From Owenia fusiformis (taxonomy: Eukaryota; Annelida; Polychaeta; Sabellida; Oweniidae), in contig CAIIXF020000007.1 of assembly GCA_903813345.2 (NCBI GenBank), positions 13,934,714 through 13,998,713 of the forward strand: a DNA stretch of 64,000 nucleotides. Reading direction: 5' to 3'. Shown here in pieces: positions 8,849 through 61,882 of the stretch. The stretch's first letter is position 1; each line of letters begins with the position of its first letter. A model generated the notes under the pieces. The model did no database searches. It was not told the DNA's origin and was given only the letters and a program-made list of their open reading frames with translations. The translations under genes were made by a program, and so were the position numbers.

Positions 8849-8880
8849 CCTGTCACAAAATTTGTTTGTCCTTTCTGTAT
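8849..8880 (-). other. Probable 5'UTR splice acceptor of the GPCR
   Basis: On the minus strand, a T-rich tract ending in ATACAG precedes AAAGG with the junction at 8875/8874, 26 bp before the GPCR ATG. This fits a non-coding upstream exon joined to the single coding exon. The upstream exon itself was not located. Confidence 0.4.
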
Positions 8881-40171: not shown

Positions 40172-42177
40172 TGTTCCATGTAGTAGTTTTGTGGACTATT
40201 TCGACTAGGTGTAGTATAATTGTGAAGTGTATCATTGACCGTAGGTGAACTTATGCAGTAAGGGGTTCGTTGTGCAAACCAATTAAATTAAACTATGAAT
40301 TTTAATGTCATTGTACAAGCCTCTTAACTTTGTTTCTCCGCTTGATGACTTTTTTTATTGGATTTTATTTGAGTTATTTGCATATTGACAGGACGTACCA
40401 GTAGTATTTCAATAAAGGTGAGTCAATGTTAACCTTTTGGCAAAAATAACATAACAGACGTGTTTACAATGTTTCTACATACAGGTTAGTGAATAATTAC
40501 ATATAAACATAAATAACTATGATCTTGCAGTCAAAACGAAAAAATCCTACATTTCTACGGCGTTCATTTTGATTTTTTGCATAAAACTGTCAACCAATAA
40601 ACATCTTTTGAAATTTGCTAGCATTCGAGTTATCTTCCGGATAGACGCATGGGATGGAGGAACTAACGGACTGCCTGACGGAGGGATCGCTTCACTATAT
40701 CCCTACCGAACTTCGTTCGTTGGGATAATGACATATCATTACGTATACTGTGGAAGGTATACGTGGCTGACACATTAGCCTTTGGGCTCGCCGTTCCACG
40801 TCACTATTGAGCATTCTTCAAAACTCTATACTAGGTCGGCATGCACAAAAGAGGAATGGAAAAGTTGATTCTTATTTAGACATCACATTACAGCAGATCC
40901 CATAATAATTGAATACGTTCAAAATTTTGTATTCTTTTCATTAGTTATTACCAAAATCGATATCCGTGTGAATTTCAAATACTGTAATAATATTGAGAAA
41001 TCCTCTGGGTCTCCCAGTCGGTCGGAATCAAGACATCCGATCGGAAATTATTTTTTATGCTTTCCAGTAATGAACTGCCAGAACGAATGATCATTCAAAT
41101 TTTGGAAATTTGCCGTCTATTCAACCTCTTAATAGCCAACCCAACAACTAAATAACTCAACTGCTGGAAACCAAGCACCTGGACAACTCAACCTTTAGAC
41201 AACTCGACCCCTTAAATATCCATCCCCTGGACAACTTAGACTTTTAAAGTGTATCAACATCATTGGATTTAATTTCTTTGCGAGTAAGTCTAAGTTACTA
41301 AGTTTCTTGCTGTTTCTAACACACTTTAACTCATTCCCTTTGGATCATGCGCTAATAATATTCAATTAAATTGAAGTGTTTACAGCGAACACTCAATAAA
41401 TCATTTTTTGCCAACTTTTAAGTTTTTGAATTGCTTATTCCCGAACAGTAAGTACTGAGGAAGCAAACTTTTAATTCAATCCTAGGTTTGTTGTATATTC
41501 TCCGGGTCTATCTATCACAAAACACATGGGACGTCATATTTTTCCTCGATGCACTTGTTTCAGGACAGTCTTGAAGTCATTAATATAGTGCCATCCTAGA
41601 TAATATTCCGATGTATTATTCATCCAATATCTATTCTAATCAACTGTAAAAAGTAGTTCAGTTATCTTTCATCTTGCAGAACCTAAGACTAACATAATAT
41701 ATGATGGTCCCAGGCAGAACTAAAACTGATTCATGTAAATATGACAAAAAGCCGAGATAATAAACAATAACTCGATCAGAGCATTCAATTTATAAGTGTG
41801 AAATTATCACAAATAACCTAAATAACATCAAGGTCTCATGTTCTTATAATTGAGGATCACTTCTCACTTGACTGGAGCGATAGACAGCTTTTTTTACATA
41901 TATTCTAACAAATGGACTGTTTGAGGATTATTTGCACTACTTTTGAAAAGCGGGCACTCCCATTTGTTTTGACATTTCTGTATCTAAATCTTTAAGATCT
42001 TTAATGAATGTACACATATATACGTTTAAAATAAGATTTTAAGGGACGCATTTTTTGTTATCTATTCTTTGAAAAGGCAATGTGACTTTTGCCCATTGAT
42101 GTAGAAGTCAACCTTAATTGAAATTCTTTTGAAACATTTCTCAATTATTTGTCTCTTAACGTTTACATTTGTCAACG
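40172..42177. other. Intergenic spacer between sulfotransferase and large gene
   Basis: Holds the 5' side of the sulfotransferase and the 3' flank of the large gene. Near 41150-41240 there is a degenerate ~22-bp repeat around 'ggacaactcaacc' and 'agacaactcgacc'. At 40640-40745 a dispersed-repeat end ('ccgaacttcgttcgttggg') recurs from 14310 and 44500. No other gene seen. Confidence 0.45.
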
Positions 42178-42267: not shown

Positions 42268-42536
42268 TTATATCATCATCTTAACATCCCGATTAGGTCC
42301 TTGACGCCCAGATTGGGATCCTCCCCTGAGTGCAGTCTCACTATAGGCAAGAGGGACTCCAGAAGGCATTCTATGTGATTTAACAATATTAATGTAATCG
42401 CCAAAATGTTCTGCCTCCAATTTGATAACTTCATTTTGCTTTCGTCGTTTCTTGGCAATGCAGATTGGAAAAGCGATGGTGCCGATGATCATAACCAACA
42501 CGATGATACACACTGCTACGATGATGCCTTCGTTGC
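42268..42536 (-). CDS. Last coding exon: transmembrane helix and cytoplasmic tail
   Basis: The acceptor 'aatattgtag' joins in phase 1 to the EGF exon, completing an Arg codon. The first residues NEG lead into a hydrophobic stretch of about 25 residues (GIIVAVCIIVLVMIIG onward), followed by the stop-transfer cluster AKKRRKQ. The tail contains GDYINI. YINI fits both a YxxΦ sorting signal and the pYxN pattern bound by Grb2-type SH2 domains (inference). The exon ends with TAA. Confidence 0.85.
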
Positions 42537-45500
42537 CTACAATATTGAAATGTATAATAGTGTAACATCACGAGCATAAAATATAAGTATTGTCGTTTGA
42601 AGAACTATAATATAGGTAAGACTATGTTGACTAACTAGCTGAACAAAACCTATGCCAAAGAAATGCTTTTAAATCCTGAATTTTTTCAGAGAAGCACAAT
42701 GATTGCTCACTAAAAATCAAACATCGTTCGAAGAAATATCGGAAAATGAAGTTTTCGGGAACTTTCGGAACTCTATGGATAGTCTATATCCATATAAATA
42801 AGACAACAACAATAGCGAATCTCATCGGATACCTCTGGCTGAATGGCCGCCTACATGTATCAGTTAAATTGTCATTAAACATTGTAATAATATGCTTCCA
42901 AGTAGTTACATGCAAAGTATTAACAATGATTTTCAGTTGTAGCAAAACGTAGAATAAAACATATGCAAATGGCCGCCGTGTCTTGAAATAGCTGCGCCTA
43001 TTTTTTGAAGGAAAAAGAACAAAATATCATCTGAGACATGTCACTCACACAGTCAACCAAATATGATAAAAACTTTAATTTGGGTCAATACTGAAGTGAA
43101 AATATTACTCGCATAGAAAACAGCATTTGAAGTTCAGAGATCAAAATAAGTAAATTACCACTTTTCACAAAGTGTATGTTTTTAAATAACTCTTGGATTA
43201 AAAGATAGCGCATGGTTGAAAATCCTATCAAAAATGAATGGATAATTAATGCAAACAACAATGCCATCTTTCTATGGCAATTGCTAAAAACATGACATAC
43301 TTAAGTATATATATTGGTAGATTAAAAATGTTTTTTCATGATCTAGTGTCAACTTCGATGTGGTCAGTTTGAGCTATTTTTTGTGTCAAATGAAAGATCA
43401 GGTACTTATTAAATTATTAATCCATTGGAAATACTATGAAGATCAAAAGTGAGACTTCATTTACGCACTTTGTCCCTTTAATTAGCCAAATTGTCAATCA
43501 AAATTTCAACACAATCTCTCTACTCCTTTTTCAATTAAAGCAAAAAACATCGAATAATACACAGAAAATGGCTGCCAATTCTAAAAATGGCTACTCACTA
43601 GCCAAATTGTCGTTATAAATTTCACCAAAATCGCTCCACTGCTTTTCCAGTTACAACAAAACACGTAAGATAACACACCTGAAACGACCGCAATGGTCAT
43701 TCATGATCACTCATTTTCTTATAAAATGTGTTGCTTTGTAACGTATCTTGGTTACCACCATATTTGGCGAGCAATACCTCATTGGTATATAACATATTTT
43801 ACATTCAAAGACAGAGCCATTGCTCCTCTTTGGAGGAAGCCTGTGTTCTTTTGTGTGCACCCGAACACAGATAAACAAGTACATGCCCAAGCCTTTTACA
43901 CCAGTCGTGGACCACTCAATCAAACACCCAGAATTACATAACGCACAAACAAACTTGTCTGAACCGGGAATCGATCCCGGGGCCAAGCGATAGCGGTAAC
44001 TTTGGTTCTTCCACTGAGCCATAGCGGGTGGGCATGCTTCTAGGTAGTGACATATAACATATCAACAAAATCGCTCTACTACTTTTCGAGTTATAGTAAA
44101 AATGTAACACACATAAAAAGTGTCATAAGACAGTGTATCAGCTTTAGGAATATTCGCATATCAAATATACGGCCACCATTTTTCGAGACGGCCACCATTT
44201 TTTTTAAATAATTTCAATTTATCTTAATTTCAACTTTTCAACCTAATCGATATCCTATATATTTTTTGCATTCTAAACATTAATGTTACAGTTTCAGATG
44301 TTGTACCTAATATACTATAAACCTTACCTGACCTTAAAATAGCGACCATGTAGAAACCGGCGGCCATTTTGAAAATCGGCTTTCGATCGGCTGATCCTGT
44401 ACTTTCATGGGGCAACAGCATTTGAGTTATTGTCCGTACGGAAGGATATACTGAACGAGCGGACGTGCGAATGGTCAGAGCCTATCTCTATCACTCCGAA
44501 CTTTGTTCGATGAAATAATGATTTTCAGAAGCTTGAATGGATCCTTCCTAAACGAATCACTTACGTTTTACACATTTTCTACCCGGGTACTGCGGATCAG
44601 GGCTTATATCAAGCATATCATCCGGACATACACATTCAAAAGATCCCATTGTGTTAATACACGAAGCATCTTCATCACATCTCAGTACATCCTCTATCAC
44701 ATCATTGGCGCATTCGTTATAATCTAAGTGAAGAAATGATTAACCTTCATTGCTTGAAATGACACTATTTAAACAAATTCCAGATTTTGTACGTTATTAT
44801 CGATATTCGACCAACCGTTCATCAAAGGAATTACGTAACGTATTGCAGTCATGTACAATACGACATGATATCATGTGCGATACGTACCATTGCATCACAT
44901 GCTTAGAAAAGTTTCAGGGTATATATGGCGAAGTTGTTTTTACAACTCCGCTTGTGTCAGTTAGTACCTCTCGATAATTTAAGTATACTTTTTTGCACAT
45001 CACTCCAGCTGACAAAATTGGAAATCTCAAACTATTTATCAAACCCTATTAATAAGTATGAAACATACAAACATGTATATGCGTGTGTGGATGATAAAAG
45101 GTGAGAGAAGTGAATTTGTAACATACAAACGATGCACTCAAAAGCAATCGCTTACCATCCGCATATTTGATACACCCTGGAGTGAAGGGGAGATTCTCAA
45201 TACCACTACGTGCGGCTTTTACATCAAATCCATGAACCAAATCATTTACAATTACGTTAAAGTCTCTCATGCCAAGTGTTATGTTCGCAGGGAACACCTG
45301 TACTGTCATATTAACGACAATGGATCCTGGTAGGAAATTGCTCAATATCAGTCCAAATTTTAACGTGTTTGCAACACTACTTCCTTTGTCGAAACCTCGC
45401 TGTATCTGAAAAGAAAACGTATACACATCATATACATGAATTCATTTTGGAGAAATATATTCAGTTTTTGATAATAATTTAAAAACTCACCGAGCAGAGT

Positions 45501-48500
45501 GAATCTCGTGCCATTTTCTTATATCTGTCAGAATCGATATTGTTAAGTTGATCATTCCATATTAGGCCAAATAATGTAAACTGCAGTTGGAACAGTCTGT
45601 TCACTAAAAAGCAAGACCAGATGATTGATAATAAAAAGAAATTATTGTGAAAGAGATAAAAAATCGAGAAAATAGCAGATCAACTGAAAATGCACAATGT
45701 GTGCAAAACATTTAATAGATAGCATATCATACTTCTAATTCTTATTGCGAGAGCACTTACCACCAGTGCATCTAAGTTGGCCATTGATACAACCGTTGGA
45801 GCAGCTCTTTGATGTATTCGCACTAGAACTAGTGGTAGTTTTAATACTAGTTGTAGTGTCAAGCTCAGTTGTAGCTGTGGTGTCAAGTTCAGTGGTTACT
45901 AAGCCTTTTGTATTGTCAGATTCAGTGTTTGTTGAAATTTCTGTTGTGTCAAGTTCCGTGGTAGCTAAACCTTCAGTTGTGTCAAGTTCATGATCAGTTG
46001 CAGCTAAGATTTCTAACGATTCTGTGGTATCAAGATCATTGGTTACTAAGCCTTCAAATTCTGTAGTGTCAAGTTCAGTGGTTACTAAGCCTTCTGTAGT
46101 GTCAGGTTTAGAGGTTGAACCTTCTGTTGTATCAGGTTCAATGGTGGCTAAGCCTTCTGTAGTGTCAAGTTCAGTGGTTACTAAGCCTTCTGTGGTGTCA
46201 GGTTTAGTGGTTGAACCTTCTGTTGTATCAGGTTCAGTGGTGGCTGAGCCTTCTGTAGTGTCAAATTCAGTGGTAACTAAGCCTTCTGTAGTGTCAGGTT
46301 CAGTGGTTACTAAGCCTTCTGTAGTGTCAAGTCCGGTGGTTGCTAAGCCTTTTGTAGTGTCAAGTTCAGTTGTTACAAAGTCTTCTGAAGTGTCAGGTTC
46401 AGTGGTTACTAAGCCTTTTGTAGTGTCAGGTTTAGTGGTTGAACCTTCTGTTGTATCAGGTTCAGTGGTTACTAAGCCTCCTGTGGTGTCAGGTTTAGTG
46501 GTTGAACCTTCTTATGTATCAGGTTCAGTGGTGGCTGAGCCTTCTCTAGTGTCAAGTTCAGTGGTTTCTAAGCCTCCTGTGGTGTCAGGTTTAGTGGTTG
46601 AACCTTCTGTTGTATCAGGTTCAGTGGTGGCTAAGCCTTCTGTAGTGTCAAGTTCAGTGGTTACTAAGCCTCCCGTGGTGTCAGTTTTAGTGGTTGAACC
46701 TTCTGTTGTATCAGGTTCAATGGTGGCTAAGCCTTCTGTAGTGTCAAATTCAGTGGTTACTAAGCCTCCTGTGGTGTCAGGTTTAGTGGTTGAACCTTCT
46801 GTTGTATCAGGTTCAATGGTGGCTAAACCTTCTGTAGTGTCAAGTTCAGTGGTTACTAAGCCTCCTGTGGTGTCAGTTTTAGTGGTTGAACCTTCTGTTG
46901 TATCAGGTTCAGTGGTGGCTAAACCAACTGCAATTGGCGTAGTTGGCCTTGATGGTCTTGATGTTGTAGTTGATGCACAGGTAGTAGTAGCTTTAGTAGG
47001 TCTAGAAGATGTTGCCTCTGGTCTGGTAGTGGGGAAGATAGTCCTCGGTTTCATCACTATGGTGGTCGGTGGAGAACTTGACGGAAGAGACCTTGTAGGA
47101 TCTGCAAACATAAACTGTGTTGGACGAAAATGGAATTGATTATATAACATTGAGCTATGCCAGACTTAGCGCGATATTTTTCATAAATGTAAGATATTGC
47201 ATTGGAAAGTGTTTATCAATGGCATTAATTTCACTTACATAGTGAGCACCTCAATCGAATATTCGGTTCTACCACCCACTGCCCATTAAGGGATATGGTC
47301 CATGCAGTTGTCTTCTCTGCGTCAACGACAACATTTCCTGATGTTGCAATAGCTCTGTCACTATTTAGTTGAGGACCAATGATCCATATTTGATAGCGAA
47401 TATAATAGTAAATGTAATAATTATTCGATGTATGCTGATATGATGCCCTGTGGTTCAACAGACCTCCACGGATCACGTATCGACCGTTTGCGAGGGAACG
47501 GACCCCGTTGAAACCGGTCACTTGCAGCTCCCTACAGGAGTTAGCTATAATGATAAAATAGGCACATTTTAAGTATTGAGTGTAGATTTCATGCATAGCT
47601 GGGTAGAGTATGTTTTGACATGTTTAAAACTCTTGACATCCACATCCCTTACGTCTTAACTAATCTATTCCATTTACCAGATGTTAGCGTTAGCATTAAG
47701 AATTGCTGACCCAGTATCCCTACTAATTCCATACACCTAGCTAGATCAGAGACTGAATGCTTGGGCACCTTTTTCTCCATATTTTAATACCACTTCAAGT
47801 TTTTTTGTCACTCGAATTCCTCTAAGACATTTCTGCTTCATTCAAATCTGTATAAGGTCATTTCTGCTTCATTCAAATCTGTATAAGGTCATTTCTGCTT
47901 CATTCAAATCTGTTTAAGGTCATTCAACCTATTGCTAGCTGTGACACTATCGATTTAGGCCTGTATATTGGACTATTGGCATTGCACAACTTCATTTCTA
48001 CAGAATGAACAATGAAGTAAACATTTGGAGGTTAAAATGTTGCAAGTTGTGGTTGGAAGTTGCCAGCTACAGATTAATAGTACAGCTTTAATCTTATGGA
48101 AGCTCTTATTAGGGCATTTTTGGAAATATTAGAAGAGTGGGTTTTAATAACTGAATCAATTGATGACAGAGGGGGAGAAACACCAGGGTTCAAAGATGAC
48201 ATACGCTTATAATGTAAATCTGTATTGAGATGACATCGTTGCTGATTGGTCAAAAGTCGACAAACAAATGACGTCATCAATGGCGGTTTCAAAATTTTCG
48301 AAATACGCTTCGAATAATATTATGTTCATTTCTGGCGTGTTAATCAATATCATAGCTTCTCATTTCACATCAAGATAAAGAAAGGTGTACGGAATATGCC
48401 TATACCAATTAAAACATCCCATCGAAGTGTAGTATTTGATAACTAGCCGATGAAAATTCGAACGAACGAAGGTGGTAAGCAAGAGAGGTAATTATGTCTG

Positions 48501-51500
48501 TCATCTTTAAACTCTGGGGCTTTCCCTCCTCTTAATTGATGATTTGCGATCACCGAATGGATTCTATCTTTAAGTGACGTCACAATTAGGCCATCCAGCT
48601 TTAGATGCTTGATTTTGAGAGATTATTTTCTATATTTCGTGCTTTATTGATTTATTTTAAACAAAACAAAATTCCTGAATTCTGATCGCAAAAGGTCAAT
48701 TGAATAAGCAAAAATGAAGAAAAGTTCCAAAAAGTCGCAGCAGCGATTTGTGGGGTCACTATGATTATCGATCCATGATTTTTCAAATATTACATTTATT
48801 TTATCCAGATTTTACACACATCTTTGATACATATAAAGCATCAAACCCTGAAAGTATGAACTTGTATGGTTTCAATTATCAAACATTATGAGCATTTCAT
48901 GACGACGCACAGATTCTTTTGGACCAGAGGGTGAGCATTAAGCACTGGACTCAATGTTTTTGTGCTATATAACACAATGGACGTATGTGGAAGCCCAACT
49001 CTTCTGGGCTACCCAAGTGGTCTGACTCTTGCCCAACTGTTCTGACAACCCAAGTGTTCCGAGATCGCTTAGTTTATCATATCTTATAATTTACAAGAGA
49101 GGGTTCAAAAAATAAAATCTTGCTGATCAAAAAAGCTAGGATGAAAAAAGAGAGACCTAAAATGTTGGCTTGTTGAAAGTTCTGACCCAATTTTTAAAAA
49201 TATGAACCCATTTTTTTTTAAATCGAGGCCCATTTTTTCAAAAGGCCCATTTTCCAATGATGAGGTATAGTCCTAAAATTGAAACCCAGCTTAAATATAT
49301 TGATATGTTCTGTCTAAATATTCTATTGCCCAGGAGCTGCCCATGGTGCAAATGTCGAACAACCGGGGATTTTACATTCCCAATGGGTACCCTTTAGTTA
49401 GCCTTGCCCAAGTCGGTATTTTTTACTTATCTGATCTTGAATTATTACCGGCGGTCATAATAGAAATCAAGATAGTAAAAGAGACCGACTTGGGCAAGGC
49501 TACCCTTTAGTTTATATGAATAAATGGAAAGCCTTTTGTGCACGAGGCAGCCACATTATAAGTGGTTTCATTAGTGGAAACGCTGCGGAGCGAAATAAAA
49601 TGGCGGATAATGAAGATCCAACTATGACCGTAAGTATTGTCCTCCAGTGTTGAAAATTTCTGTTGTGTCAGTCTTGGTAAAAATCTTTCAATATAGTATT
49701 AATAACGATGAACCCGTCTAATAAAAGCAATAAAATCGAGGTTTGAAAACTTCCAAAAATAACACGAACGACTCTAATTATGAACCATTCCTAATTTTGC
49801 AAATAGGCGGATTTGGATAACGGCAAACTCGGGTTTCGAGGGCGCAGATTATGTCAACGCGATTGCACGGTGTCCAACCCAAACGCTCTTAAATGCACGA
49901 CGGAGCGTTTCATTCACGTGGAAACGCTGCGGAGCGAAATAAAATGGCGGCTAATGATGATCCAACTATGACCGTAAGTATTGTTTCACTCGTTTCTCTT
50001 ACATATTGTACGATATGGAGACATATTATGTACCATTTGATGAACAATACCCTGAGCAAAGATCTTATTTATTCAACGTCTGGTGGTAAACTGTTATTTG
50101 TTTGATGAAAGCTCCGTGGTGTAGCTCAAACGGATCTGAAGTAGATCAACAACTCGTATATCCTCATTTGCCAAAATCCCAGTCCAAATCCATAACTTGT
50201 TCTCGAGAAATCGCTTGTTTTCCCCAAAACGCTCTATCGATTTTTGACACAATTTTAGAAAAACTCTTACCATTTTGTATTGATATTATTTTCAGATTAT
50301 TAGAGAAGAGTTCGGAATCGAATCTATCTCTCAAAAACGTGTTGTACTTGTTAGGCAAATTGAAACTTTCCAACTTGCTGTTGGTGCTACACGTGCAACA
50401 GGCCGACTTAAAGACCCACTATACTTAATTTAGAAAAAAATCATTGAAACATTTGACTCACAGTTTGATTTGCTTTAATATTGAACCAAGAAAAAAATCA
50501 CACGGAAAAAAACATTTGAAGTTTAGAGATCATTAGACATGCATGCACATGTTAAACAAAGTGCATGTTTTAAATTACTGTTGATTTAAAAGATGGCGAC
50601 ACTTCTATAAAAAGAATGTATCACGTTATACTTTTGCCATCTATAACTTTGACATCTTTCAATGACATTGATAAAAACTTGATATATAAAACTTGACAGA
50701 TCGAAAATATGTTTTTGATAATTTATTGTAAGCATTGATGTGGTCCGTTTGAGCTGCTGTTGGTGTCAAATGAAAGATAAGGTTCTTATCAATACATTGA
50801 ACATACTATGAAATTCAAATGTAGGTCTTTATTTTGCCCAAAAAGTTTAAAATGGGCCTTAAGCCTACATTACATGATGTTATACCTACATGTGTGCTAA
50901 AACATAAAATGATTGACAAAAAAAAAAGTTTTTATGTGAATTAATCTTTCTTCTTTTGATGCCAAGGATATTATTTATTCAACTTCTGATAAATCGTTTT
51001 TCCTCTTCCTGAAAAGGAAAGCCAAGATAATCCTAAACATATCTAGATTAGTACGGCCGCGTTTCCAGTTCACTGTGTTAACCAGCAGATCGCAGCGTTT
51101 CTTGAATATGAGAATGTCATTATTTTTAAGACTGGATTTTCGATCATCAAATCACAATTACGATAATGTATGGTGTATTGAAGCTTTAAAATTTGACCAA
51201 AATATACTCTGATGCTCTAATCTTGACTCAACTAACCAATTGTTTCGACAAAAGGGGTTTTGACCGGTAGAATGACAAATACGTGAATGAATATATATAA
51301 AAATATATACAAATGAATTTTGATAACTATACTGCTTCGTACAGCTCTTCCTATTTGCTTCAAAGCCAGCCAAGAACAACATGGATATCAAACCCATCGA
51401 ATACTCGAAATAAGTAACACATACCTCTTATTGCCATTATTGGGTAAAACGTCAGATGGCTCATTTTTCCCGCCCGCCATTTTTCCTACTCCAGAGCGTT

Positions 51501-54500
51501 TCTTTGTTTAATTTCAGTAATGGACCGCTCCGTCGTGCATGTAAGAGCGTTTGGGTTGGATACCGTGGACCCGGGGGTTTCACTCCAATATACCTCATAA
51601 TACTTATGCATCCTCTGGAGTCTGCTGGGACTAAATTTCCTTAAATATTGTTAAATTGACTAAAAAAAACTTTTTCAGTGATTTGTCAAAGGCCTTGGCA
51701 ACTGATTAAACCAAAGTAATACCATTTTATAGAAAAATTTTTGACCTAAAAAGGTACTTTCTTCGACAAATTTTCCATGTTTTTCCTCTCAAATTTGCAA
51801 GTTTCCATCGTTAATGCCCATACCTTCTGCACATACCTACCCAAATAATTTGGAGTGAACCCCTCCGGGACCGTTGAGTGCTTCTGCTGTCTACGTCAGT
51901 CTCCAGCCAGAGCCTCGTTTTCAACTCTATATACCACGGAGTATATTCCACGGTAGAAAGTGCCGGATGTTCAGCACTATCCCCGATATTACCGGGAGTT
52001 TATTCCCCGACTACGTGTTTCATTTCAAAGGGCATGATGATTGTATCTGATTAAAATGGACGAATACATTTTACGATTTGTGGGCTGGCCTTGATTGGGT
52101 CATAAAAAGAGGTTATTTAATGCGAGGTTTTTGAAAAAGGATATACCCGAGAGAAATACAGTATGTCTACCCGAGCACCGTAGGGACCGAGTGTTGATAT
52201 AGTGTATTTACCGTCAAAATTGAGCATTTAATAACTGATTTATCCTATATTTAGTAGATTAATAGGATTAGGTAATCATTGAATGTTATGGAACCCTCAT
52301 GTAATAATTACAAATGATAATCACGATCAAAATAAATGTATTTTATTTCAATTAAAAGTTCTTAACATCCATTGCTTTTAAACTTTGATTTTAACTTTGG
52401 TTAAACTTTGTTTGTTGATCGTCTGTCATCTTGTTTGTAAGCACAAAAAGCACCGAACGAAATTCCCGGGGATTATTTAAAAGGTTTCAGAAAAGTGGTT
52501 TGCAGACAGATTATGGAATCTGTCTGAATAGGGTGATTCAAGTAAAGCCTGGAACCGAAAAAATAAAAATAATTGTGTACCTGTCAAGCAAACTCCCGTT
52601 ATTAACGACATTGGGACAAATTGATCTCCAGAAAGGATTCGCCATTGTGTATTAATGTTGATATCACGCGGCGTCAATGCTGCGTCATTCACAATAATTC
52701 CCGCTGCTCTGGATGTTATGTCTGGTCCTACAATCCACGCTCCCCAATATGTACTATAAAAGAGATACCCTGTTCCTGACTCATGGGTATAAACGGGTCT
52801 ATTCATCATAGTCTGCGCACTCAGAGTGAAAACGCCCCGTCGATATAGTTGTATACTTGTAATCCCATTGATGTAGAACCGCTCGCAATGGTTTATCTTA
52901 TCAACTATAAATAAATGACAATTCACTATGATATACGCTAACGTATATTATGAATTATAATCATGTTCTAAAACTTTTTTGGATCACCCTCGTATGCTCT
53001 ACAATTTTCCGACTTAAGGGCATCTTCCACAAATCTTTGTTCTCCCTCTGCCTCTTAAGTCGACATCACATAGAGGTCATTAAGTTCGATACAATAGGCA
53101 CATGGCAGATATATATATTATATATTTGCCTCGGGAAAATCCCAATATCCTGAACCTCATATAGGATAATCTCTATTTATGCACTAACCAAGTTAATCTA
53201 CAGGGCGTCCACAAAAAAGTATACCCAACTTTGAAATCAAATTACTAGAATGCTGAACAATATCTAAAATATACAAAGGTAGCAATAAAAGCCTAATTTG
53301 TCCTACATCAAATGGTACCTGGATCATTATGTAGCTGTCATGTACGACTGAGCAATCATGACTTTATGGAAGGTGGTAAAACAAAATCAGCACTGTTATC
53401 TTCCTGTGTGGCAATCGATTGTAATTTGGCTATTCTTTTTCTGTTACATTAAGAGGACACGCCTTTCATACTGAACTGGGCTGGGGAGTGAGTAACTCTT
53501 ATGAAAAAAGGTTTGGCAAAAAGCTTAACTTACTTAAGCTTAGAATAGGCCTGCAAAATGGTTGAGCTGACACCTGAGCAGTTGAGCCAACAAAAGTTTC
53601 TAAAAAGTAAGTCCAATATTCTGTTTAAGAACCCATTATATTACTTTTGAAAATAGATTGTAGCAATACTGTCCCACATGAATCTACTTGTTGAGACTCA
53701 ATCAACTTGAGTTCTTTTGAGAAAATAAGGATTTAGCAAGGGTGTATTGACTTTGCACGGGGGATACAATTGACTTCACCTATTGATCAGCAAAGAAACT
53801 TCTACATGATGATATGCAGTCTTTGGATCCAATTTCCCGAGAGAATGGTACCAACAGAAAGCTATGGAAAAAGCAAAAAGTGAAAAGAACATGGAACAAG
53901 TTTGAATTTGAACATTAATATTGTTTTGAACACACAAAAAAACATTTACTGTATCAATCTTACTTGAATGCTAACTTGGCACAGAGCTGATTTTATTACC
54001 TTTCATAAAAACCATGATTGCTCAGTCATCCATGACATAATGATCTAGGTATCGTTTGATGGAGGAAAAACTAGGCCATTTACTGCTACCTTTGTATTTA
54101 AAAAAACTGCTCAGAATTCTAGTATCCTGGCTTTGAAGTTGGGTATACTTTTTTGTATTTAACCGACAAGCTCATGTAACACACACACGTATCCATGCGA
54201 TTTCAATCACGTAATTGTATATGTATATTTGAGGTTGAAATATGGAGGTCGTATGAAGTGAAATCAATGAAATGTCCTGCAAACAACAATTCATTATATC
54301 GTCCATACCTGTCAGGCAAACTCCCTTTAATGAGAAAGTGACAAGCCGACCTCCAGACACGATACGCCATTGTGCATCACTGTCGATATCCCGTGGCGAC
54401 AGTGCTGCGTCGGACACAAAAATTCCTCCTACTACTGAGCCTACGTTTGGTCCAACAATCCACGCCCCGAGATCTACACTATAGTATAGAAACTCTCTTC

Positions 54501-57500
54501 CCGACTCATGGATATAAACAGGTCTATTCATCCAAGTCTGCACACTCAAAGAGAAAATACCTTGTCGATTTCTTTGGTAACTTGTAACCCCGTTGATAAA
54601 AAACCGCTCGCAATGGTTTATCTCATCAACTAAAACAATAAATAACATGTAATACATGTGCAAATAAAGTTTGTCAGTACCTCAGCTGAAATACTTAGTT
54701 CTGATTGGTAAATCAATAGTGAAGATGTATCAGTATACAATTGTTGACCTCTCCAGAGGTCAACCGGCAAAATTGTATACCGAGACTGTAAACCGAGAAA
54801 CTACTGTTGAGAGAGACCGAAGGTCGAGGTCAACAGTAGTTTCAAGGTTTACAGTCGAGGTATATGATTTTGACGGTTGGTCGAATGGAGAGGTCTACAA
54901 TTGTTTTGTTAGTCCGAAGAAACTAATAATACACATAAAGACGACAATCATCAATCGGCATGGCTTCATTTCACAACCTTTTCTCCGAACCACGTTAGCA
55001 ATATTTTTTTAGAAAATCTGAAGACAGTGCAAATAGCTAAACTCTCTGTATTCGGCACATCACGGCGTACTTATTAGAAAATTAATGTTAATTTTACGTT
55101 TCTATTTGTATTTTTGCTATATTTGTTGTCTAGTAAAGTCAAAATATAATTTTCATCAACGTTTATACATGTTACAAAATATCCGTCTTTCATGTTTTTT
55201 GTGACGCCATGGAACTTTTTTTCAAAAGTTGCGGTCAACAGTACCTAGTAGCGGTCAACAGTATACAATTGTTGACCTCTCCAGAGGTCAACCGTCAAAA
55301 TTGTATACCAAGATTGTAAACCGAGAAACTACTGTTGACAGAGACCGAAGGTCGAGATCAACAGTAGTTCCAAGGTTTACAGTCGAGGTTTATGATTTTG
55401 ACGGTTGATCGAATGGAGAGGTCTACAATTGTTTTATTAGTCCGAAGAAACTAATGATACACATATAGACGACAATCATCAATCGGCATGGCTTCATTTC
55501 ACAACCTTTTCTCCGAACCACGTTAGCAATATTTTTTTTAGAAAATCTGAAGACACTGCAAGTAGCTAAACTCTCTGTATTCGGCACATCACGGCACACT
55601 CATTAGTAAAATAATGTTAATTTTACGTTTCTATTTGTATTTTTGCTATACTTGTCATCTAGTAAAGTCAAAATATCATTTTCATCAACGTTTGCAAAAT
55701 GTCCGTCTTCCGTGTTTTTTCTGTAAACATTATGACGTCATGAAACTTTTTTTTAAAAGTAGCGGTCAACAGTACCTAGTAGCGGTCAACAGTATACAAT
55801 TGTTGACCTCTCCACAGGTCAACCGGCAATATTGTATACCGAGACTGTAAACCGAGAAACTACTGTTGACAGAAACCGATACGTAAATATTTTTATTTCT
55901 TACGACGGGTCGTTAGTTACGACGGTCGTAAGTTACGATTGTCCCAAGAACGGCCCCCTGTTGACCCGTCTTCGTAAAAGACCTGGCCAATGCAATTGAC
56001 GCAATGTCACGTGGCGTACCTGTGACACACGTGTGGGAATATTATTATACGCCGACGATATTGATTGTGCTAATCGTATGCAACGTATGCTGGACACTAT
56101 GAACTGTTGGTGCAGTAAATGGCGTATGGCCGTTAATGGTCTTAAGACCAACGTGATTCACCATCGCGCACGTACAACATTACGTTCACATTTCCAATTT
56201 CACTGTGGTGACATCGATTTGGACTATACATCGAGTTACAAATACCTGGGAATTACACTCAACGAGCACATGGATATGGTGGCAACCGCCACAGTGCTGG
56301 CCAAGTCCGGTGTAAAAGGGTAGGAGGTCCTATCAAATTATGGTCCTACTCTCCATTGATCTATATGCATGGTCACCTGAATACAACTCTTTCCCTCATT
56401 ATCTTATACGCAATCAGGGCCAGTAAGGGCCGTTAAGAAAGGGGGTCTTAATCCCTGGGGGACCATCATTTCTTTCACACCGGTTAACGTGCGCTTGGTG
56501 CCATAGTGGCCAAGTCAAGAGCAACAGGAGGATTATCATACGACGTATTCACTCATATCTATGACTCACTCGTAGGACCGGTGCTAAATCTCTCAATGAC
56601 CAGCAGGTTTTGGAGTGCTGCTGGTCATTGTGACCAGCTGATTTTATAGTTGACCACCTCGAATTTTAATACTGCTGGACATGATGACCAGCAGGGAAAT
56701 TTGGCTTAAGGCGTGCCCTGGTGCTCACGTATGACTCTGGAATTCGGGGCATTAATAAAGCAACAACTGCACCCGCGATCGACCGTCGTACCAAACAAAG
56801 CACAACGATTCTTTCTTGGTGTAGGCCAACATGCCCCCAGCTCGGCAGTACAAGGAGACATGTGCTGAACAAGCATTGATACACGACACAGTATTGAATC
56901 AGCACGGATGTGGTGCCGCTTTAAAAACATGTCACCTCAACGAACAATTAAGAAAATACACGTTTGGTCACTTAGCCCGCGCGGTTCCTGGGAATCAAAA
57001 GTAAAAACTCTGCTATCGGACAACGGAGCTGAAATGCTAATAACGCAGGATGAAATTTCTAATTGTGAAACAGTATTTGAAACAACTTGGACATCGTTTG
57101 AGCTCTACTGCACATGAAATCAATCACTGTGGAACGACCGCAGAAACCAAGAACATGGCACTAAACTAAGAACATATAGACTACATAAATCTCATGCGAC
57201 AACCTGAGCCGAAAGTCCAAATGCCCATGCACAATTATGAGCGCAGTAGCTTAGCACGAATTCGATCAGGAACCCTCCCTATAAGAATCGAAACCGGACG
57301 ATTTACAGGTGTCGAATTACACGACAGAGTATGCTCATGCAACCAGAGTGTTGAAGACGAAATCCATATCCTAATTGACTGCCCCTTGCACGTTGACAAT
57401 AGGCAAGCATGTGCTTTACAAATACCGGACTTTAACAACTTATCGAGCATGGGCAAATATTGCTCAATGATGAACACTATCAGTACAAATACTCAGATTC

Positions 57501-60500
57501 TATGATAATGGTAAAATGGCTACCTTAGTAGAGGTATGTAGCAAGTTGTAAACTGTTAGGCTTAAAAAAGCTTTCGCATGATATAAAGAGCACATTGGGG
57601 TATGCTATTAAGGTTTGGTGGTTGACGGGGGACGGTCATTAATGAAACACCGACCCTAGTAGAAGTTCGACACAATACTTAAAACTTGAGCTGAGCTGTG
57701 AGTGATCCTTCAATGCATTCTCAGAGTCAGAATCTGAGAATGATTTTTTCATAAATTCTAAAATTGCTAGCAGATACATTGTTTGTGAAAAATGGAGGCA
57801 TATTTTACATTCACGGGTTAACAGATATACCTGTACGAGACTTACAATACATAATTTTCCCATTGCCTTTAATGGATATGATAATAAACGGAAGGATTTG
57901 GACATCTATGCGGTTACCTGTATAACAGTTTACAGAAACTGTATCTGCATACTCAAATTGCTCAGATTCACCAGAATATACCTCCCAAGTGGCATTTATT
58001 TCACCCGGCACCATCGCTACGTCAAGGACTTTCATATAGACGTCATCCGGCTTATTCCAGAGTGTAACATACCAATATCTTATTTTCTCTGTAAGCACTA
58101 CATGAAACAAGGACATGTTTCTGGATTCGTGAACATAGACTGGTCGTCCATTGGAAAGAGTTCCATTTAGAAAATAAATACCTCCTAGTCCCCTTTGATG
58201 ACGAGGCAACCCAGTGAGCAGGAACCTTTCACAAGGTATAGGACCTGTAAATATGAATCGTCATCATTTCATCGTTTTAACGACAAATCCCACATTACTC
58301 TTTATTATCAAAACTTATCTTGAAGATATTTTAATGACATTTTTAAATGCGATAGCCCTATGTACAGATAACTAAAAATGTTTTCGCTGCTATAATATAA
58401 GGATTTGTCTTAAACGTTCATATTTCTTTTTGTATATCAAAATGTATTTGTTTATTGGATGCATAGATGCAAATACACATTTGCGTTTTAGGTAATTTAC
58501 AGGGGTTTCAAAACAAATTTTCAGTGACGGGATATTTGTCGAAAAAAATCTTCAATAATTTATCAGTCATCTTTATAATCAAGACAAAAAATATTTATTA
58601 CTTAGTATACGTGGTATATTAAAAACATAAAATATCATGTCACAGGAAACCACGATGGATACATACCAAAGTAACATTCGATCTTAATTTCGCCTCCACC
58701 GGTTACCTGCCACTTATGAACAATTTTTGCAGGGTTAGTTTCGTTTGTCATAAACGGTGATTCAAGAATAGAAGATGCTGAACTCAGTTGCCATTTTTTG
58801 CCATTGATCATACGGAGGGTGACTACACTATCGCTGTCAGAGTTTGCTTTTCTGTAAATCGGCACTCCATTGTCGTCAGATCCAGCAATACGATACGCAC
58901 CAATGAGATGAGCGTTAGAAGCATCCCTTGAAATCCAGCTTACCCAAAGGCCATCACAGACACTACTGCACGATAGGGACAATTCATTCTCAGGAAGCCA
59001 GAGACCCGAGTTCAGAGACATCCACTGGCCAGTTATGGCAGATGGTGTCGTTGTTGTAATTTTCACCTTCAATCCAGCTTCTAATTCTCCAATAGTAGAA
59101 CCAACCAACCAGTGACCACAGTGAAAGTAAAGGAATTCGGCTTCTATTAAATGCTTATAAACTGGTTTAAAATTCCATTCCATCGCTTGTAGGACAAATA
59201 CTCCTTCTCTCCACCTTTGCTGTCGATTCTTTATGTTTGTTAATTTAAGTGATTGACAAGGTAGCTCACTGGTTCCTAAAAACATTAAGACATAGATTAT
59301 AGACAATAATAAAATAATAGTACAAGTTGTTCGCTAAGTAATGCCACTGGGTCTCCCATTTTTACGGTTTTAACCAATCTTTCTAGAGTACATGATATGT
59401 AACAAGATTCATGTCATTGGAATGAAAATAGTTACTAGTAATTATCTGCATATAACATTTTGATTTTGTAACAATGTTCTTGACAGAGCACCTATTAAAT
59501 CCCATTTAACATAATCCTGAGTTTATCACTTCTGCAAGCGTTTCAATATTTTACATCCAGCAGTCTAGGTCCATCGCCATTTGATATAATATTCATTTTA
59601 TCTGCTTCAGTGCATTTTTGGTGTTACTAGTAATCGATCCATTCTTGAAAAATATTGCATGATTCCTTGACAAAATGGGACACCTGGTGTCATACCACAT
59701 TGAACATCTTGTATAAACAGTCCAGAAATGCGATAATTGCATCACAGAATACACAGTAGTAGTTATACAGAGTGGGGCATTTACGTTTGTAGTAGCTTAA
59801 CAATTTGTCAATTAAAATGTCAACCAGTCAAATAAAGATACTCTTATGAAAGATCACAAATTAAAAAAATGTATTCCCTCAATATGTACAACCTATCATA
59901 ACCTTTGGTTTTCAATTATAAAGGAAAATGTAATTTTTATTTGTAAAGGACGATTCTCGGTTTGGAGAACGAAGTTCATCAATCTAAATGAGCATTATCC
60001 CTGCTTCGGACAAATTTGATTTTTTTACATAATAGAGATTTGAACGTCTTCTTTTGAATAGTCATAATTTATTTTGGGTTATATTTCTAGATTTTTCGCA
60101 AAAAAATATTAGCGCAGTACACTGATGAACTTCTTTCCCCAAATCGAGACTTGTATTTTATTGAATCGGTCTAATTGAGCGTTATCCCTGCTTCAGACCA
60201 ATTTGTTATTTTTACATCTTGTAGATTTAAATGTCCTCTTTTGAATATTCATAGTCTAATTTGGGTAATATTTCTATATTTTTCATTAAAAAAATTATTA
60301 GCCCAGGAGACTGTTCTACAAACCGAGAATCGTCCTTTAAAGTTGTAAAGTAAAATAGGAATTGTACTTGTTGTGGCAATATTCAAGTTTGAATCCTCTC
60401 CGTAGACCAATACCATCAACGTAATCGATGTCATGGGATCTCAACAGTATTATGATCTCATTATCTCTTGAGACAAATGTAACATCTGGCAACACAGAGC

Positions 60501-61064
60501 CGCAGAATCTAGTACATAGAGGGAATCAATGGCTCATAAACAGTTATACACATGTGCATTCATCATATTCATTTACAAGAGTTACGTTGTCACTTGTATT
60601 TATATATTCTTACGTTTTTATCCATATTCTATGAACTTGTGCATAACTCATTTTGAAATACGAATGCGATTTTTTGTTCATACACCGAACAAAGACACTT
60701 CATCCTATCAAAAAAGGTTTGTTAGTCTTGCTTCAATACCCTGGATCCCTGGCCTGTTGAAAAGTAGATAAGGGGAAGGGGTGTGCAGGGTCTTGGAGCA
60801 AGACTAGAAATTCGTTGATACATTCGCACAGAATGCAACAAACTCTAGTCGACAATCGCTCGGAATGCAACGAAATCTAGTCGACAAAAAGAACAGTACA
60901 GAGTTGAAATGAAAATTAAAGAGAAAAAACCTTGGTCCTGTTTGTCCCATGTCGGAGAATCGAACTTCTATCCAATCTAGATATGAACAGCTCGAGCTCC
61001 CATTGGTTAAATCTATGCCAAAGTCATCTATAAAGTATGCATTCACATGTTGCCCAACTGGCGC
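42268..61064 (-). CDS. Transmembrane mucin-like CUB/SEA/EGF receptor (gene-level span, 5' incomplete)
   Basis: Protein order: CUB domain, six ~100-residue cysteine-bounded modules, 447-codon Thr-rich mucin region, SEA domain, calcium-binding EGF, one transmembrane helix and a ~65-residue tail. Coding exons from the 5' side: 61064-60931, 60508-60368, 59275-58667, 58244-57918, 54629-54309, 52904-52581, 47544-47239, 47101-45761, 45603-45491, 45405-45156, 44723-44565, 42536-42268. From 59275 on every junction has GT/AG and compatible phase, mostly 1-1, the mark of shuffled extracellular modules. The CUB exons end in phase 2, so one small exon before 59275 is unseen or the CUB belongs elsewhere. 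The signal peptide is not in view. One in-frame TAA (46514-46512) breaks the mucin exon. The layout resembles membrane mucins and adhesion receptors; ligand unknown. Confidence 0.8.
42537..44564. repeat. Intron with dispersed repeat and tRNA-derived element
   Basis: The intron between the EGF and transmembrane exons. Segments at about 43060-43450 match 50500-50830 in another intron ('gtgtcaaatgaaagat' in both). Copies of 'ggccgccattttg'-type sequence and an end reading 'ccgaactttgttcg' near 44495 suggest that one long dispersed element fills much of it. Confidence 0.5.
43960..44030 (-). repeat. tRNA-derived (SINE-like) sequence
   Basis: Read on the minus strand, TGGCTCAGTGG (44021-44011) matches the A box and GATCGATTC (43976-43968) matches the B box consensus GWTCRANNC exactly. 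They are spaced about as in a tRNA gene and followed by CCGGTTC. The stems do not close into a full cloverleaf and there is no clear CCA-adjacent end, so it is a tRNA pseudogene or SINE head. The open frame through it (MAQWKNQ...) is incidental. Confidence 0.6.
44565..44723 (-). CDS. Exon: calcium-binding EGF domain
   Basis: A 159-bp exon, phase 1-1, acceptor 'ttcacttag' and donor C/GTAAGT. It encodes DYNEC...RC...SC-INTMGSF-EC-VC...RKC. This is six cysteines, with the D-x-N-E-C start and the N-x-x-G-S-F segment of calcium-binding EGF domains. It sits between the SEA domain and the membrane, as in several membrane mucins. Confidence 0.9.
45156..45405 (-). CDS. Exon: SEA domain, C-terminal part with GSIVV motif
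   Basis: A 250-bp exon (phase 0 to 1) after the acceptor 'ttcttttcag', ending G/GTAAGC. It begins IQRGFDKG and contains NFLPGSIVVNMTVQVF. GSIVV corresponds to the G-S-V-V-V site at which SEA domains of membrane mucins and adhesion receptors cleave themselves, between G (45327-45325) and S (45324-45322). The remainder, to PGCIKYAD, completes the fold. Confidence 0.9.
45491..45603 (-). CDS. Exon: SEA domain, N-terminal part
   Basis: A 113-bp exon: acceptor 'gctttttag', phase 1 in and phase 0 out, donor TCG/GTGAGT. It encodes NRLFQLQFTLFGLIWNDQL leading to SDRYKKMARDSLCS, the first strand and helix of a SEA domain. It joins directly to the IQRGF exon. Confidence 0.85.
45761..47101 (-). CDS. Exon: Thr-rich mucin-like repeat, one in-frame stop
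   Basis: 1341 bp (447 codons), acceptor 'atgtttgcag' and donor G/GTAAGT, phase 1-1. It starts DPTRSLPSSSPPTT, then runs as repeats of 10 and 11 residues such as DTTEGSTTKP, DTTGGLVTTEL and DTTEGLATTEP. In the 5' half these form a 32-residue (96-bp) higher-order unit. It ends SCSNGCINGQLRCTG, a small Cys motif before the SEA domain. Thr density implies heavy O-glycosylation. All codons are open except one TAA at 46514-46512, where the repeat has ACA. The change is two adjacent substitutions. The opposite strand is also open over 371 codons, which reflects the repeat and not a gene. Confidence 0.85.
47239..47544 (-). CDS. Exon: extracellular module 6
   Basis: 306 bp, phase 1-1, acceptor 'atcattatag', donor T/GTAAGT. 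It encodes NSCRELQVTGFNGVRSLANG, a GRYVIRGG block, Y-Q-H, WIIGPQL and a final RLRC. The pattern is the same as in the other modules but it is the most diverged: RPVY is replaced by ASYQH. Confidence 0.85.
47830..47935. repeat. 31-bp tandem repeat, about 3 copies
   Basis: Units start with 'tttctgcttcattcaaatct' at 47830, 47861 and 47892, a period of 31 bp. The third copy differs by a base or two and breaks down after 'ggtca'. Confidence 0.85.
48167..48533. mobile_element. MITE, ~365 bp, copy 2
   Basis: Second copy of the element at 14807-15156. Imperfect terminal inverted repeats: 'caccagggttcaaagatgac' on the left against 'gtcatctttaaactctgggg' on the right. Confidence 0.7.
49400..49501. mobile_element. 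102-bp TIR element with 11-bp TSD
   Basis: The ends AGCCTTGCCCAAGTCGGT and complement are perfect 18-bp inverted repeats. It is flanked by the 11-bp direct repeat ACCCTTTAGTT (49389-49399 and 49502-49512). A 9-11-bp duplication with long TIRs is the Mutator-like signature. Confidence 0.85.
49600..49629 (+). pseudogene. Start-exon-like sequence, outer duplicate
   Basis: ATG GCG GAT ... ATG ACC followed by GTAAGT. Near-identical to 49944-49973 together with about 35 bp of upstream sequence ('gtggaaacgctgcggagcga'). It lies outside the foldback element and is probably a local duplicate of its left terminal exon. Confidence 0.4.
49944..49973 (+). CDS. Candidate first exon, left end of foldback element
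   Basis: Encodes MAANDDPTMT and ends at ACC/GTAAGT in phase 0. The context aataaaATGG is favourable. No downstream exon was identified. Confidence 0.35.
51425..51480 (-). CDS. Candidate first exon, right end of foldback element
   Basis: Minus strand: ATG GCG GGC ... encodes MAGGKNEPSDVLPNNGNK and ends AG/GTATGT in phase 2. It mirrors the plus-strand candidate at the other end of the element. No downstream exon identified. Confidence 0.35.
52581..52904 (-). CDS. Exon: extracellular module 5
   Basis: 324 bp, phase 1-1, acceptor 'ttatttatag', donor G/GTACAC. Key positions: INHCERFYING, RRGVFTLSAQ, MNRPVYTHESG, YLFYS, GAWIVGPD, AAGIIVNDAAL, QWR and a final GVCLT. The most similar relative is module 4, suggesting a recent exon duplication. 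Confidence 0.9.
53101..53178. repeat. Solo fragment of the GGGCAGATATA element family
   Basis: Shares 'caatatcctgaacctcatat' and the following 'aggataatctctat' with 18549-18590. It lies in the intron between modules 4 and 5. Confidence 0.7.
53201..54160. mobile_element. Mariner-like element with transposase start relic
   Basis: The left end CAGGGCGTCCACAAAAAAGT follows TA. Inverted ends of about 170 bp share 'aaaagtatacccaactttga'. The extreme right terminus is eroded. Near 53560 an ATG opens MVELTPEQLSQQKF, which looks like the N-terminus of a Tc1/mariner-type transposase, but the frame soon ends. It is an old, internally deleted copy in the intron between modules 4 and 5. Confidence 0.75.
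54309..54629 (-). CDS. Exon: extracellular module 4
   Basis: 321 bp, phase 1-1, acceptor 'attgttttag', donor G/GTATGG. Key positions: INHCERFFING, RQGIFSLSVQ, MNRPVYIHESG, FLYYS, GAWIVGPN, GGIFVSDAAL, QWRIVSGG and a final GVCLT. Confidence 0.9.
54731..55890. repeat. 530-bp tandem repeat containing a 167-bp near-perfect hairpin
   Basis: The marker 'gttgacctct' occurs at 54743, 55271 and 55802, periods of 528 and 531 bp. Each complete unit contains a near-palindrome (54738-54904; 55266-55432). Its arms start 'acaattgttgacctctcc' and end 'ggagaggtctacaattgt', closing through 'ctactgttga' / 'tcaacagtag' onto a loop that itself holds GACCGAAGGTC. The third unit stops near the hairpin apex. The remaining ~360 bp of each unit is AT-rich spacer. 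No ORF of note. Confidence 0.85.
55975..57505 (+). pseudogene. Decayed LINE (non-LTR retrotransposon), RT to C-terminal part
   Basis: Reading frames shift several times. The reverse transcriptase core is visible at 56033-56323: LLYADDIDCANRMQRML with the YADD catalytic pair, then CSKWRMAVN and SYKYLGITLNEHMD. After a gap, blocks typical of the following region appear (FTHIYDSLVGPVLN near 56550; a frame at 56908-57114). The C-terminal block at 57194-57505 has RSGTLPIRIETGRF and a C-x-C...H...C cluster. The 5' half is missing. It inserted in the opposite orientation in an intron of the large gene. Neutral decay is expected there. Confidence 0.85.
57918..58244 (-). CDS. Exon: extracellular module 3
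   Basis: 327 bp, phase 1-1, acceptor 'tcatatttacag', donor G/GTAACC. It encodes PIPCERFLLTG, GGIYFLNG, NGRPVYVHES, YWYVTLW, MKVLDVAMVPGEI, TWEVYSGES and a final VNCYT. Confidence 0.9.
58667..59275 (-). CDS. Exon: extracellular modules 1 and 2
   Basis: 609 bp, phase 1-1, acceptor 'gtttttag', donor G/GTATGT. Two modules are fused in one exon. The first has PCQSLKLTN, REGVFVLQ, FKPVYKH, FLYFHCGHWLVGS and LSLSC. The second has CDGLWVSW, GAYRIAG, GVPIYRK, KWQLSS, KWQVTGGG and IECYF. Each module is bounded by a Cys near either end and keeps the P-V/I-Y and W-x-V/L-G/S positions. Confidence 0.85.
59276..60367. other. Intron or gap upstream of module 1
   Basis: Holds the MITE at 59946-60338. Because the CUB exon ends in phase 2 and module 1 begins in phase 1, a short linking exon is expected somewhere here. 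I could not recognise it. Confidence 0.4.
59946..60338. mobile_element. MITE with AAAGGACGATTCTCGGTTTG ends
   Basis: Perfect 20-bp terminal inverted repeats (59946-59965 and 60319-60338). The interior is two diverged copies of one ~180-bp segment ('ttatccctgcttc' near 59996 and 60183). It lies about 30 bp from the end of CUB exon 2. Confidence 0.8.
60368..60508 (-). CDS. Exon: CUB domain, C-terminal half
   Basis: 141 bp after acceptor 'ctatgtactag', phase 2 in. It encodes FCGSVLPDVTFVSRDNEIII, then LLRSHD and GFKLEYC. The F-C-G, S-x-x-N-x-x-x-x-L and G-F-K-L-x-Y-C positions are those of CUB domains. The only available donor is AACAA/GTACAA, phase 2. Confidence 0.75.
60931..61064 (-). CDS. 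Exon: CUB domain, central part
   Basis: 134 bp, phase 0 in and phase 2 out, acceptor 'ctttgctttgtag', donor CCAAG/GTTTTT. It encodes APVGQHVNAYFIDDFGIDLT, then SCSYLDWIEVRFSD and QTGPR. It joins FCG in the next exon as GPR-FCG, a classic CUB sequence. The first strand of the domain must lie in an upstream exon. Confidence 0.75.
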
Positions 61065-61882
61065 CTACAAAGCAAAGACTTTTTTGATTCTTAATCTCGG
61101 TATCTGCAGTTGTAATTACAATCCACAGTAATAATATATATTGTAATTTAAATGTAAGATGTACAAACACGAGAAATCGAGGAGAACCAAACAACATACT
61201 GTAGCGACCCGGGTTGGCTTGTCATATTTTACCCTTGAATAAAATGCCAACCTTCCAACCGGTCTCGCTACTTCCCTTCCGCTCGGAGCGCGAAAAGTAC
61301 CACCGCAGAGACAGGGTGATACACGAAATTGGTAGAGCTCTATATAGCTTCTGTATTCAGTACAACTATTTTGTAAGGGTTTGAAGCTTATAACCATACT
61401 ATGTCCCGATCTCATGTACATTTAGAGAAATACCAGCTTGAAATGGTACATCTGTTTTTCGGGAGACTCTTCAACAATGCTTTTCACATAATACATACCG
61501 TGTTATATATCAAAACACACGTAATTGGTATGAAAAATATATGTTACAATAATATTCAATTTCTATTTTTCCTTTTTATGTAAGAGACGCTCAAAAGAAC
61601 TCCATAGCATCTTAAAGTGCTCATTTTTACCATGTAAAACGTGGCATTTGGTGATTTCAAAATATGGTAATTTGGTCATAATTTTTTTATTCCTCATCCA
61701 ATTTACCTCAAATTTGGTATGGGGCTATGGTGTTAAAACTGTATCAAAATTGGACATCTTATATTTATGTGATATCTCTAACACATAGAATAGCGTTTAT
61801 CAGAATACATACACAATCCGTGTGATTTCATACATGGTTTGTTCGAGTTTGTACACTTTATGTTTGTAAAATCACACTTGTA
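61065..61882. other. Probable intron, no gene seen
   Basis: A locally CpG-rich patch at about 61200-61320 carries an open minus-strand frame including CLCGGTFRAPSGRE. The CGG might recall a CUB start, but spacing and later residues do not fit, so I do not call an exon. Confidence 0.4.

Follow-up and report, generated by a model that had tools for sequence, protein, structure and literature searches.

Transmembrane mucins other than MUC4 carry an SEA domain, an EGF domain, a transmembrane segment and a tail at their C-terminus (PMC9080433), and an O-glycosylated stalk, a cleavable SEA domain and an anchoring helix are established parts of membrane mucins (PMC9578598, PMC1552070, PMC9080433); these papers, like PMC6954182 below, are drawn on in part, and what we attribute to them refers to those parts. 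Self-cleavage of the SEA domain takes place at a GSVVV (or GSIVA) motif, in the loop that joins strand 2 to strand 3, and the cleaved fragments likely stay associated until force or ligand, again as a likelihood, parts them (PMC6954182). Grouping of an SEA domain in a tree with the SEA domains of known mucins has been used as a criterion for mucins (PMC1552070). Here we describe a minus-strand locus in a 64,000-nucleotide stretch of the annelid Owenia fusiformis (the window; contig CAIIXF020000007.1, positions 13,934,714 to 13,998,713, numbered below from its first letter). On balance, and with some reserve, we read this locus as the main part of a gene, of animal origin, that encodes a mucin-like membrane protein of type I, with an outer portion made of a tandem of all-beta domains, five of them secure and one probable.

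Exon chain and domain order

The locus was rebuilt from sequence, with a splice check, as a minus-strand chain of ten coding exons running from 59275 to 42268 (Table 1). The initial annotation had joined the same ten exons by GT/AG sites and compatible phases, and all of them were recovered: the nine internal introns are GT..AG without exception and match in phase, eight lying in phase 1 and one, between E7 and E8 inside the SEA-like domain, in phase 0. E1, too, begins at a phase-1 acceptor. The joined frame comprises 1339 codons, final stop included, and places in succession the repeated module, a threonine-rich stretch, an SEA-like domain, a calcium-binding EGF domain, one transmembrane helix and a tail. 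GC content was 33-37% in the sequence examined, which together with the exon-intron structure and the kinds of gene present suggests an invertebrate source; the sequence scanned yielded no Rfam match and no ARAGORN tRNA.

As a control for openness, segments matched in length to each exon were drawn at random from sequence outside the exons and read in one given frame (n = 3000 per exon length). Among the module exons, open segments numbered 16 per 3000 at the length of E1, 39 for E2, 29 for E3, 30 for E4 and 36 for E5; at the lengths of the remaining exons there were 0 (E6), 311 (E7), 45 (E8), 153 (E9) and 38 (E10). The short exons E7 and E9 are unconvincing by openness alone; E9 is supported instead by its EGF_CA match and E7 by its joining into the SEA-like match. 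E6 is itself not open, because of an in-frame TAA.

The exons from E6 onward give the chain its mucin-like character. E6 consists of 33% threonine and 46% proline, threonine and serine combined, contains an array of 96-nt units at 46059-46922 and finishes in a short stretch containing cysteine. E8 carries LPGSIVV, a self-cleavage motif of the GSVVV type. The calcium-binding EGF domain and the transmembrane helix with its tail, both assigned by the initial annotation from the letters, held up: Pfam EGF_CA (PF07645) scored 32.1 bits on E9 alone, above its cut-off of 27 (E 1.4e-7), and 29.1 bits in the joined E7-E10, and E10 contains a hydrophobic 19-mer with a Kyte-Doolittle mean of 3.25. The tail includes YINI, which we take to be a possible sorting or SH2-type site, and its last residues, M-M-I, are a possible PDZ site.

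Several results weigh against the membrane mucin-like reading. The TAA in E6, which the initial annotation had not mentioned in proposing one frame, is the single internal stop in the 1339 codons, and a single open frame is therefore absent from this assembly. Pfam SEA (PF01390) on the joined E7-E10 reached 18.0 bits (E 0.0032), below the curated cut-off of 26.4; of the SEA domain originally named, the GSIVV motif and a weak profile match thus stand, and we call the domain SEA-like because the score is sub-threshold though the motif is present. Among PDB sequences the SEA-like part had no match at E<=10, and all 29 PDB matches to E7-E9 fall on the EGF part. A look by eye, with no predictor run, identified neither a start codon nor a signal peptide. 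A hydrophobic frame preceding E1 was considered as a signal peptide and rejected; the only ATG between the stop of that frame and the acceptor lies three codons before E1. The 5' end of the gene is missing and may fall outside the window.

Table 1. Coordinates of the exons and associated features of the mucin-like locus
Feature	Positions	Strand	Content	Basis
E1	58667..59275	(-)	first module, M1 (59273-58962), and second, divergent module, M2 (58961-58668)	splice check
E2	57918..58244	(-)	module M3	splice check, leave-one-out profile
E3	54309..54629	(-)	module M4, copy used for folding	splice check, leave-one-out, AlphaFold2
E4	52581..52904	(-)	module M5	splice check, leave-one-out
E5	47239..47544	(-)	module M6	splice check, leave-one-out
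E6	45761..47101	(-)	threonine-rich mucin-type exon	composition, repeat array, splice check
In-frame TAA stop	46512..46514	(-)	inside E6, codon 196 of the 446 of the exon	
E7	45491..45603	(-)	first part of SEA-like domain	splice check; Pfam SEA on joined E7-E10
E8	45156..45405	(-)	remainder of SEA-like domain, LPGSIVV cleavage-type motif	splice check; Pfam SEA
E9	44565..44723	(-)	calcium-binding EGF domain	Pfam EGF_CA
E10	42268..42536	(-)	transmembrane helix, tail of ~60 residues, stop	splice check, hydropathy
Poly(A)-type signal AATAAA	42178..42183	(-)	begins at 42183, 85 nt past the end of the final stop	
CUB-like exon C1	60931..61064	(-)	middle of CUB-like domain; phase 2 join to C2	
CUB-like exon C2	60368..60508	(-)	donor at 60368 in phase 2	

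The repeated module

The outer part of the predicted protein is built from a module that the initial annotation had counted six times. A profile made from five copies was applied to the sixth, each in turn, with 1000 shuffles per copy. M1, M3, M4, M5 and M6 scored 48.6, 45.1, 92.3, 100.7 and 43.8 bits; since these values far exceed the shuffle maxima for the same five modules (6.2 to 12.6 bits), five copies are secure. The claim for the sixth, M2, fared less well, its 4.7 bits lying below a shuffle maximum of 9.3. M2 is nevertheless a probable copy, judging from its position, its two terminal cysteines, the invariant columns and its structural model: C, G, Y and W columns remain invariant in the alignment with M2 included, and both terminal cysteines, one near each end, are present in all six modules. 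A six-copy profile run against frames of at least 20 residues found no further copy in the window (next best E 0.11).

Each of M3 to M6 has an exon of its own, and E1 holds both M1 and M2; phase-1 introns flank all of these exons. Phase-1 flanking introns are the usual signature of exon shuffling. M4 and M5 are 62.6% identical, and their ratio of nonsynonymous to synonymous substitution (dN/dS, Nei-Gojobori) is 0.47, which indicates constraint at the protein level after duplication; being a mean over the whole period since the two copies arose, the ratio does not place a recent loss in time. Among the ten module pairs compared, M2 left out, only M4/M5 is far from saturation, five others being saturated and four nearly so (dN/dS 0.27-0.55).

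The module matched no named family significantly, in line with the initial annotation, which could give it no domain name. Pfam gave only sub-threshold matches, both for the exons covering all six modules (best Img2, E 0.037 on M2) and for M1, M4, M5 and M6 taken singly (best DUF599, E 0.076); all six modules were scanned against NCBIfam, with 0 families, and against PHROGs, with no significant match (best E 0.23). Against PDB sequences neither M4 (best E 1.1) nor the module profile (E 0.28) reached significance.

Structure prediction of one module, which the initial annotation had proposed as a check, gave an all-beta fold. AlphaFold2 modelled M4, from an alignment of the six window sequences only, with a mean predicted local distance difference test (pLDDT) of 89.4 and a predicted template-modelling score (pTM) of 0.83; the model contains nine strands and lacks any helix as long as four residues. 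From the same six rows M2 was modelled with a pLDDT of 77.2 and a pTM of 0.68, as eight strands in an order similar to that of M4 plus one short helix; because the other modules served as its alignment, part of the resemblance of M2 to them comes from the input and is not independent. Foldseek with the M4 model returned 519 PDB matches at E<=10 and 0 at E<=0.001, the best having E 0.23, probability 0.16 and a template-modelling (TM) score by query of 0.31. Among the 50 best of these 519 matches, no solved lipocalin, beta-trefoil or MORN fold matched M4 structurally. The module is thus confidently predicted to be a compact all-beta domain without a name in the libraries searched and without a convincing solved relative.

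Predicted viral structures came closer to M4, with 579 Foldseek matches at E<=10, 0 at E<=0.001 and a probability of 1.00 for each of the top four. A putative calpain of an Aureococcus anophagefferens virus (A0A076FI00) matched at E 0.0046 with a TM score by query of 0.61 and 13% identity, a RING-type protein of ChoanoV1 (A0A5B8IHW8) at E 0.016 with 0.47 by query and 15% identity, a phage protein at E 0.030 with a TM score of 0.60, and a 106-residue protein of Clandestinovirus (A0A8F8PN15) at E 0.038 with 0.61 both ways and 8% identity. A0A5B8IHW8 was also the best viral match of the M2 model (probability 0.99, E 0.066, TM score 0.52). The three giant-virus proteins thus resemble M4 in the fold of a part or the whole, and differ from it in their protein contexts and in sharing only 8-15% identity. 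We regard this as a moderate match between predicted folds, not as proof of homology.

Searches for relatives by sequence covered prokaryote genomes, viral contigs, plasmids and phages, and say little about animals. In genome contigs, M4 picked out 29 stretches and alignment A4 14; in viral contigs the counts were 15 and 19, and 0 were confirmed in any of the four sets. Plasmids gave no tblastn match to M4 at E<=1. The five phage records found by tblastn with M5 at E<=10 (best E 0.7) were taken as chance. Four DNA-pattern scans of the viral contigs, built on the spacing NG-x-P-V-Y ... W-x-[VI]-G or on relaxed versions of it, returned 9, at least 80, 9 (7 of them returned before) and 1 stretches; in the available stretches of 92 pattern-scan loci, no frame of at least 30 residues matched the five-module profile (best E 1.3). 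Among the matches listed from the open literature nothing was tied to the module. The papers among those matches that contain NRPVY deal, by their titles, with apidaecin peptides, and these five shared residues were taken as chance.

A bolder proposal, which taken whole we hold to be doubtful, is that the module represents an all-beta recognition domain, as yet uncatalogued and stapled by a disulfide, common to an animal surface protein and to giant viruses of algae and choanoflagellates. Shuffling of phase-1 exons would have joined such a domain, with no solved structure, to a mucin stalk that cleaves itself, yielding a sheddable multivalent receptor.

The internal stop and the upstream exons

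The in-frame TAA bears on every reading of the locus, as it may be an error, an allele or a truncation. Past the stop, the array keeps its frame, and no further internal stop interrupts the SEA-like, EGF and transmembrane exons. Because the frame stays open behind it, we favour either an error of assembly within the repeat array or an allele of recent origin; such an error or allele, rather than a fixed loss of the gene, is most likely. Repeat arrays are prone to errors in assemblies.

If the stop is real, the product of that allele would comprise the modules and part of the stalk, with no membrane anchor. That the functional product of the gene or allele is indeed secreted or truncated in this way, as the modules followed by ~195 residues of stalk and lacking SEA, EGF and anchor, is an unlikely alternative, to which the position of the TAA lends some weight, since it falls in the very frame by which the modules are connected with the SEA-like, EGF and transmembrane part. 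Against it stand the downstream array and SEA-like, EGF and transmembrane exons, open and with intact splice sites, which would be unexpected had they long been untranslated, together with the general error-proneness of such arrays.

We consider it improbable that the locus holds two genes or transcripts, the first (E1-E4 or E1-E5) encoding a protein of modules and the second, distinct from it, a mucin-SEA-EGF-transmembrane protein. The 5 kb between E4 and E5 and an in-frame ATG near the start of E6 would suit such a division, yet the intron between E5 and E6 is merely 137 nt long and fits in phase, E5 has no in-frame ATG, and what follows the ATG of E6 is, by eye, a proline- and threonine-rich stretch with no signal-like hydrophobic run. 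Least probable of all is that such a receptor is represented here by a pseudogene in decay, since the in-frame stop, the divergent M2 and the missing 5' end that might suggest it are set against just one internal stop in 1339 codons, GT-AG sites intact in all nine introns and the M4/M5 dN/dS of 0.47 (an average since duplication).

The initial annotation had also placed a CUB domain upstream of the module exons, and this claim was only partly borne out. By eye, C1 and C2 resemble the second half of a CUB domain, and phmmer matched the pair to cubilin (E 0.0035 for the whole sequence, added up from weak stretches that each fall short of significance); Pfam gave no match at E<=1. Full-length C2 cannot be adjacent to E1 in the mRNA because its donor is in phase 2 and E1 is in phase 1, so that a link between them needs a bridging exon, which is possible, or a shortened CUB domain. 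Two phase-1 donors inside C2, at 60414 and 60408, were rejected, as they would cut the CUB-like domain ahead of its last cysteine. Among frames of at least 22 residues between 60400 and 59250 no bridging exon was recognised by eye, and neither was a first half of the CUB domain up to 64000. Past the CUB-like exons, toward the end of the window, 61874-62945 holds two inverted arms of 214 nt, 93% complementary and 644 nt apart, resembling a miniature inverted-repeat transposable element.

Other repeats and genes were observed in the window. The intron between E2 and E3 contains a reverse transcriptase fragment at 56000-56323 (+), antisense to the gene (RVT_1, E 4.5e-5, below cut-off), and, at 54671-55879, three repeats spaced at 528 and 531 nt, two of them with a near-palindromic pair of ~50-nt arms. 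In the intron between E9 and E10, the stretch 43711-44061 (-) looks by eye, from its box-like motifs, like a tRNA-derived short interspersed element; ARAGORN called no tRNA. Tandem arrays with periods of 367 and 366 lie at 33877-35279 and 37879-38997, the starts of their consensus units being mutually reverse-complementary by eye. Just downstream of the mucin-like gene, 39248-40195 (-) encodes in a single frame a sulfotransferase-like protein (Sulfotransfer_3, E 5.6e-9), which could in principle sulfate glycans; the link is one of proximity only. A single-frame class A G-protein-coupled receptor lies at 7643-8890 (-) (7tm_1, E 5.1e-38; best PDB sequence match the D(2) dopamine receptor, E 4.5e-28).

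Proposed mechanism and comparison with known proteins

For the membrane mucin-like protein that we favour, the threonine-rich stalk would be O-glycosylated and hold the module cluster off the membrane, while the transmembrane helix would anchor the short subunit. By analogy with known SEA domains, the protein is probably cleaved at its SEA-like domain: self-cleavage at the GSIVV loop would occur during folding and leave the two parts joined as a heterodimer, and force or ligand engagement could then release the outer part. At the tip, the clustered modules may bind a ligand by many weak contacts, with the tail coupling such binding to trafficking or signalling. Any ligand, whether microbial, a gamete or another cell, is conjectural, and so is the epithelial or immune role that the initial annotation had suggested. 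The module lends itself well to the naming of a domain family, to structure determination and to a search for its ligand.

Two non-vertebrate or non-mucin comparisons place this layout in context. Actinia tenebrosa mucin1-like proteins are, likewise, non-vertebrate membrane mucins with SEA and transmembrane segments, and among its mucin4-like proteins some have an N-terminal CUB and others a C-terminal SEA (PMC9080433). The mucin4-like proteins also carry NIDO, AMOP and VWD domains, none of which was matched here in the Pfam scans, and the repeated module does not appear among the Actinia mucins in the parts of PMC9080433 drawn on. GPR126/ADGRG6 similarly combines CUB and SEA in one cell-surface protein, with SEA as the proposed shedding point; it differs in being a seven-transmembrane protein with pentraxin, HormR and GAIN domains, in the cutting of its human SEA by furin and in having no mucin stretch named in those parts of the source (PMC6954182). 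For C1 and C2, no significant profile match over a whole CUB domain was obtained.

Among the closest counterparts are vertebrate SEA-type membrane mucins such as MUC3, MUC13 and MUC17, which also combine repeats rich in proline, threonine and serine, usually in one large exon, with SEA, EGF, one transmembrane segment and a tail (PMC9578598, PMC1552070, PMC9080433). The locus has the long repeat stretch rich in these residues (E6) and the one transmembrane helix with a cytoplasmic tail (E10), and lacks a stalk and anchor in one open reading frame, owing to the TAA. The gene is therefore built like an SEA-type membrane mucin, yet we do not file it as a member because its frame is interrupted and its SEA score falls below the Pfam cut-off. 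The C-terminal M-M-I does not fit a class I PDZ motif, in contrast to the MUC3-cluster mucins, which carry such a motif (PMC9578598). Unlike the vertebrate SEA-type mucins, whose SEA contrasts with the sub-threshold match here, this protein would bear five or six unnamed all-beta modules outside its mucin stretch. The mucin, SEA-like, EGF and membrane architecture is of an already known kind, and the repeated module is its new element.

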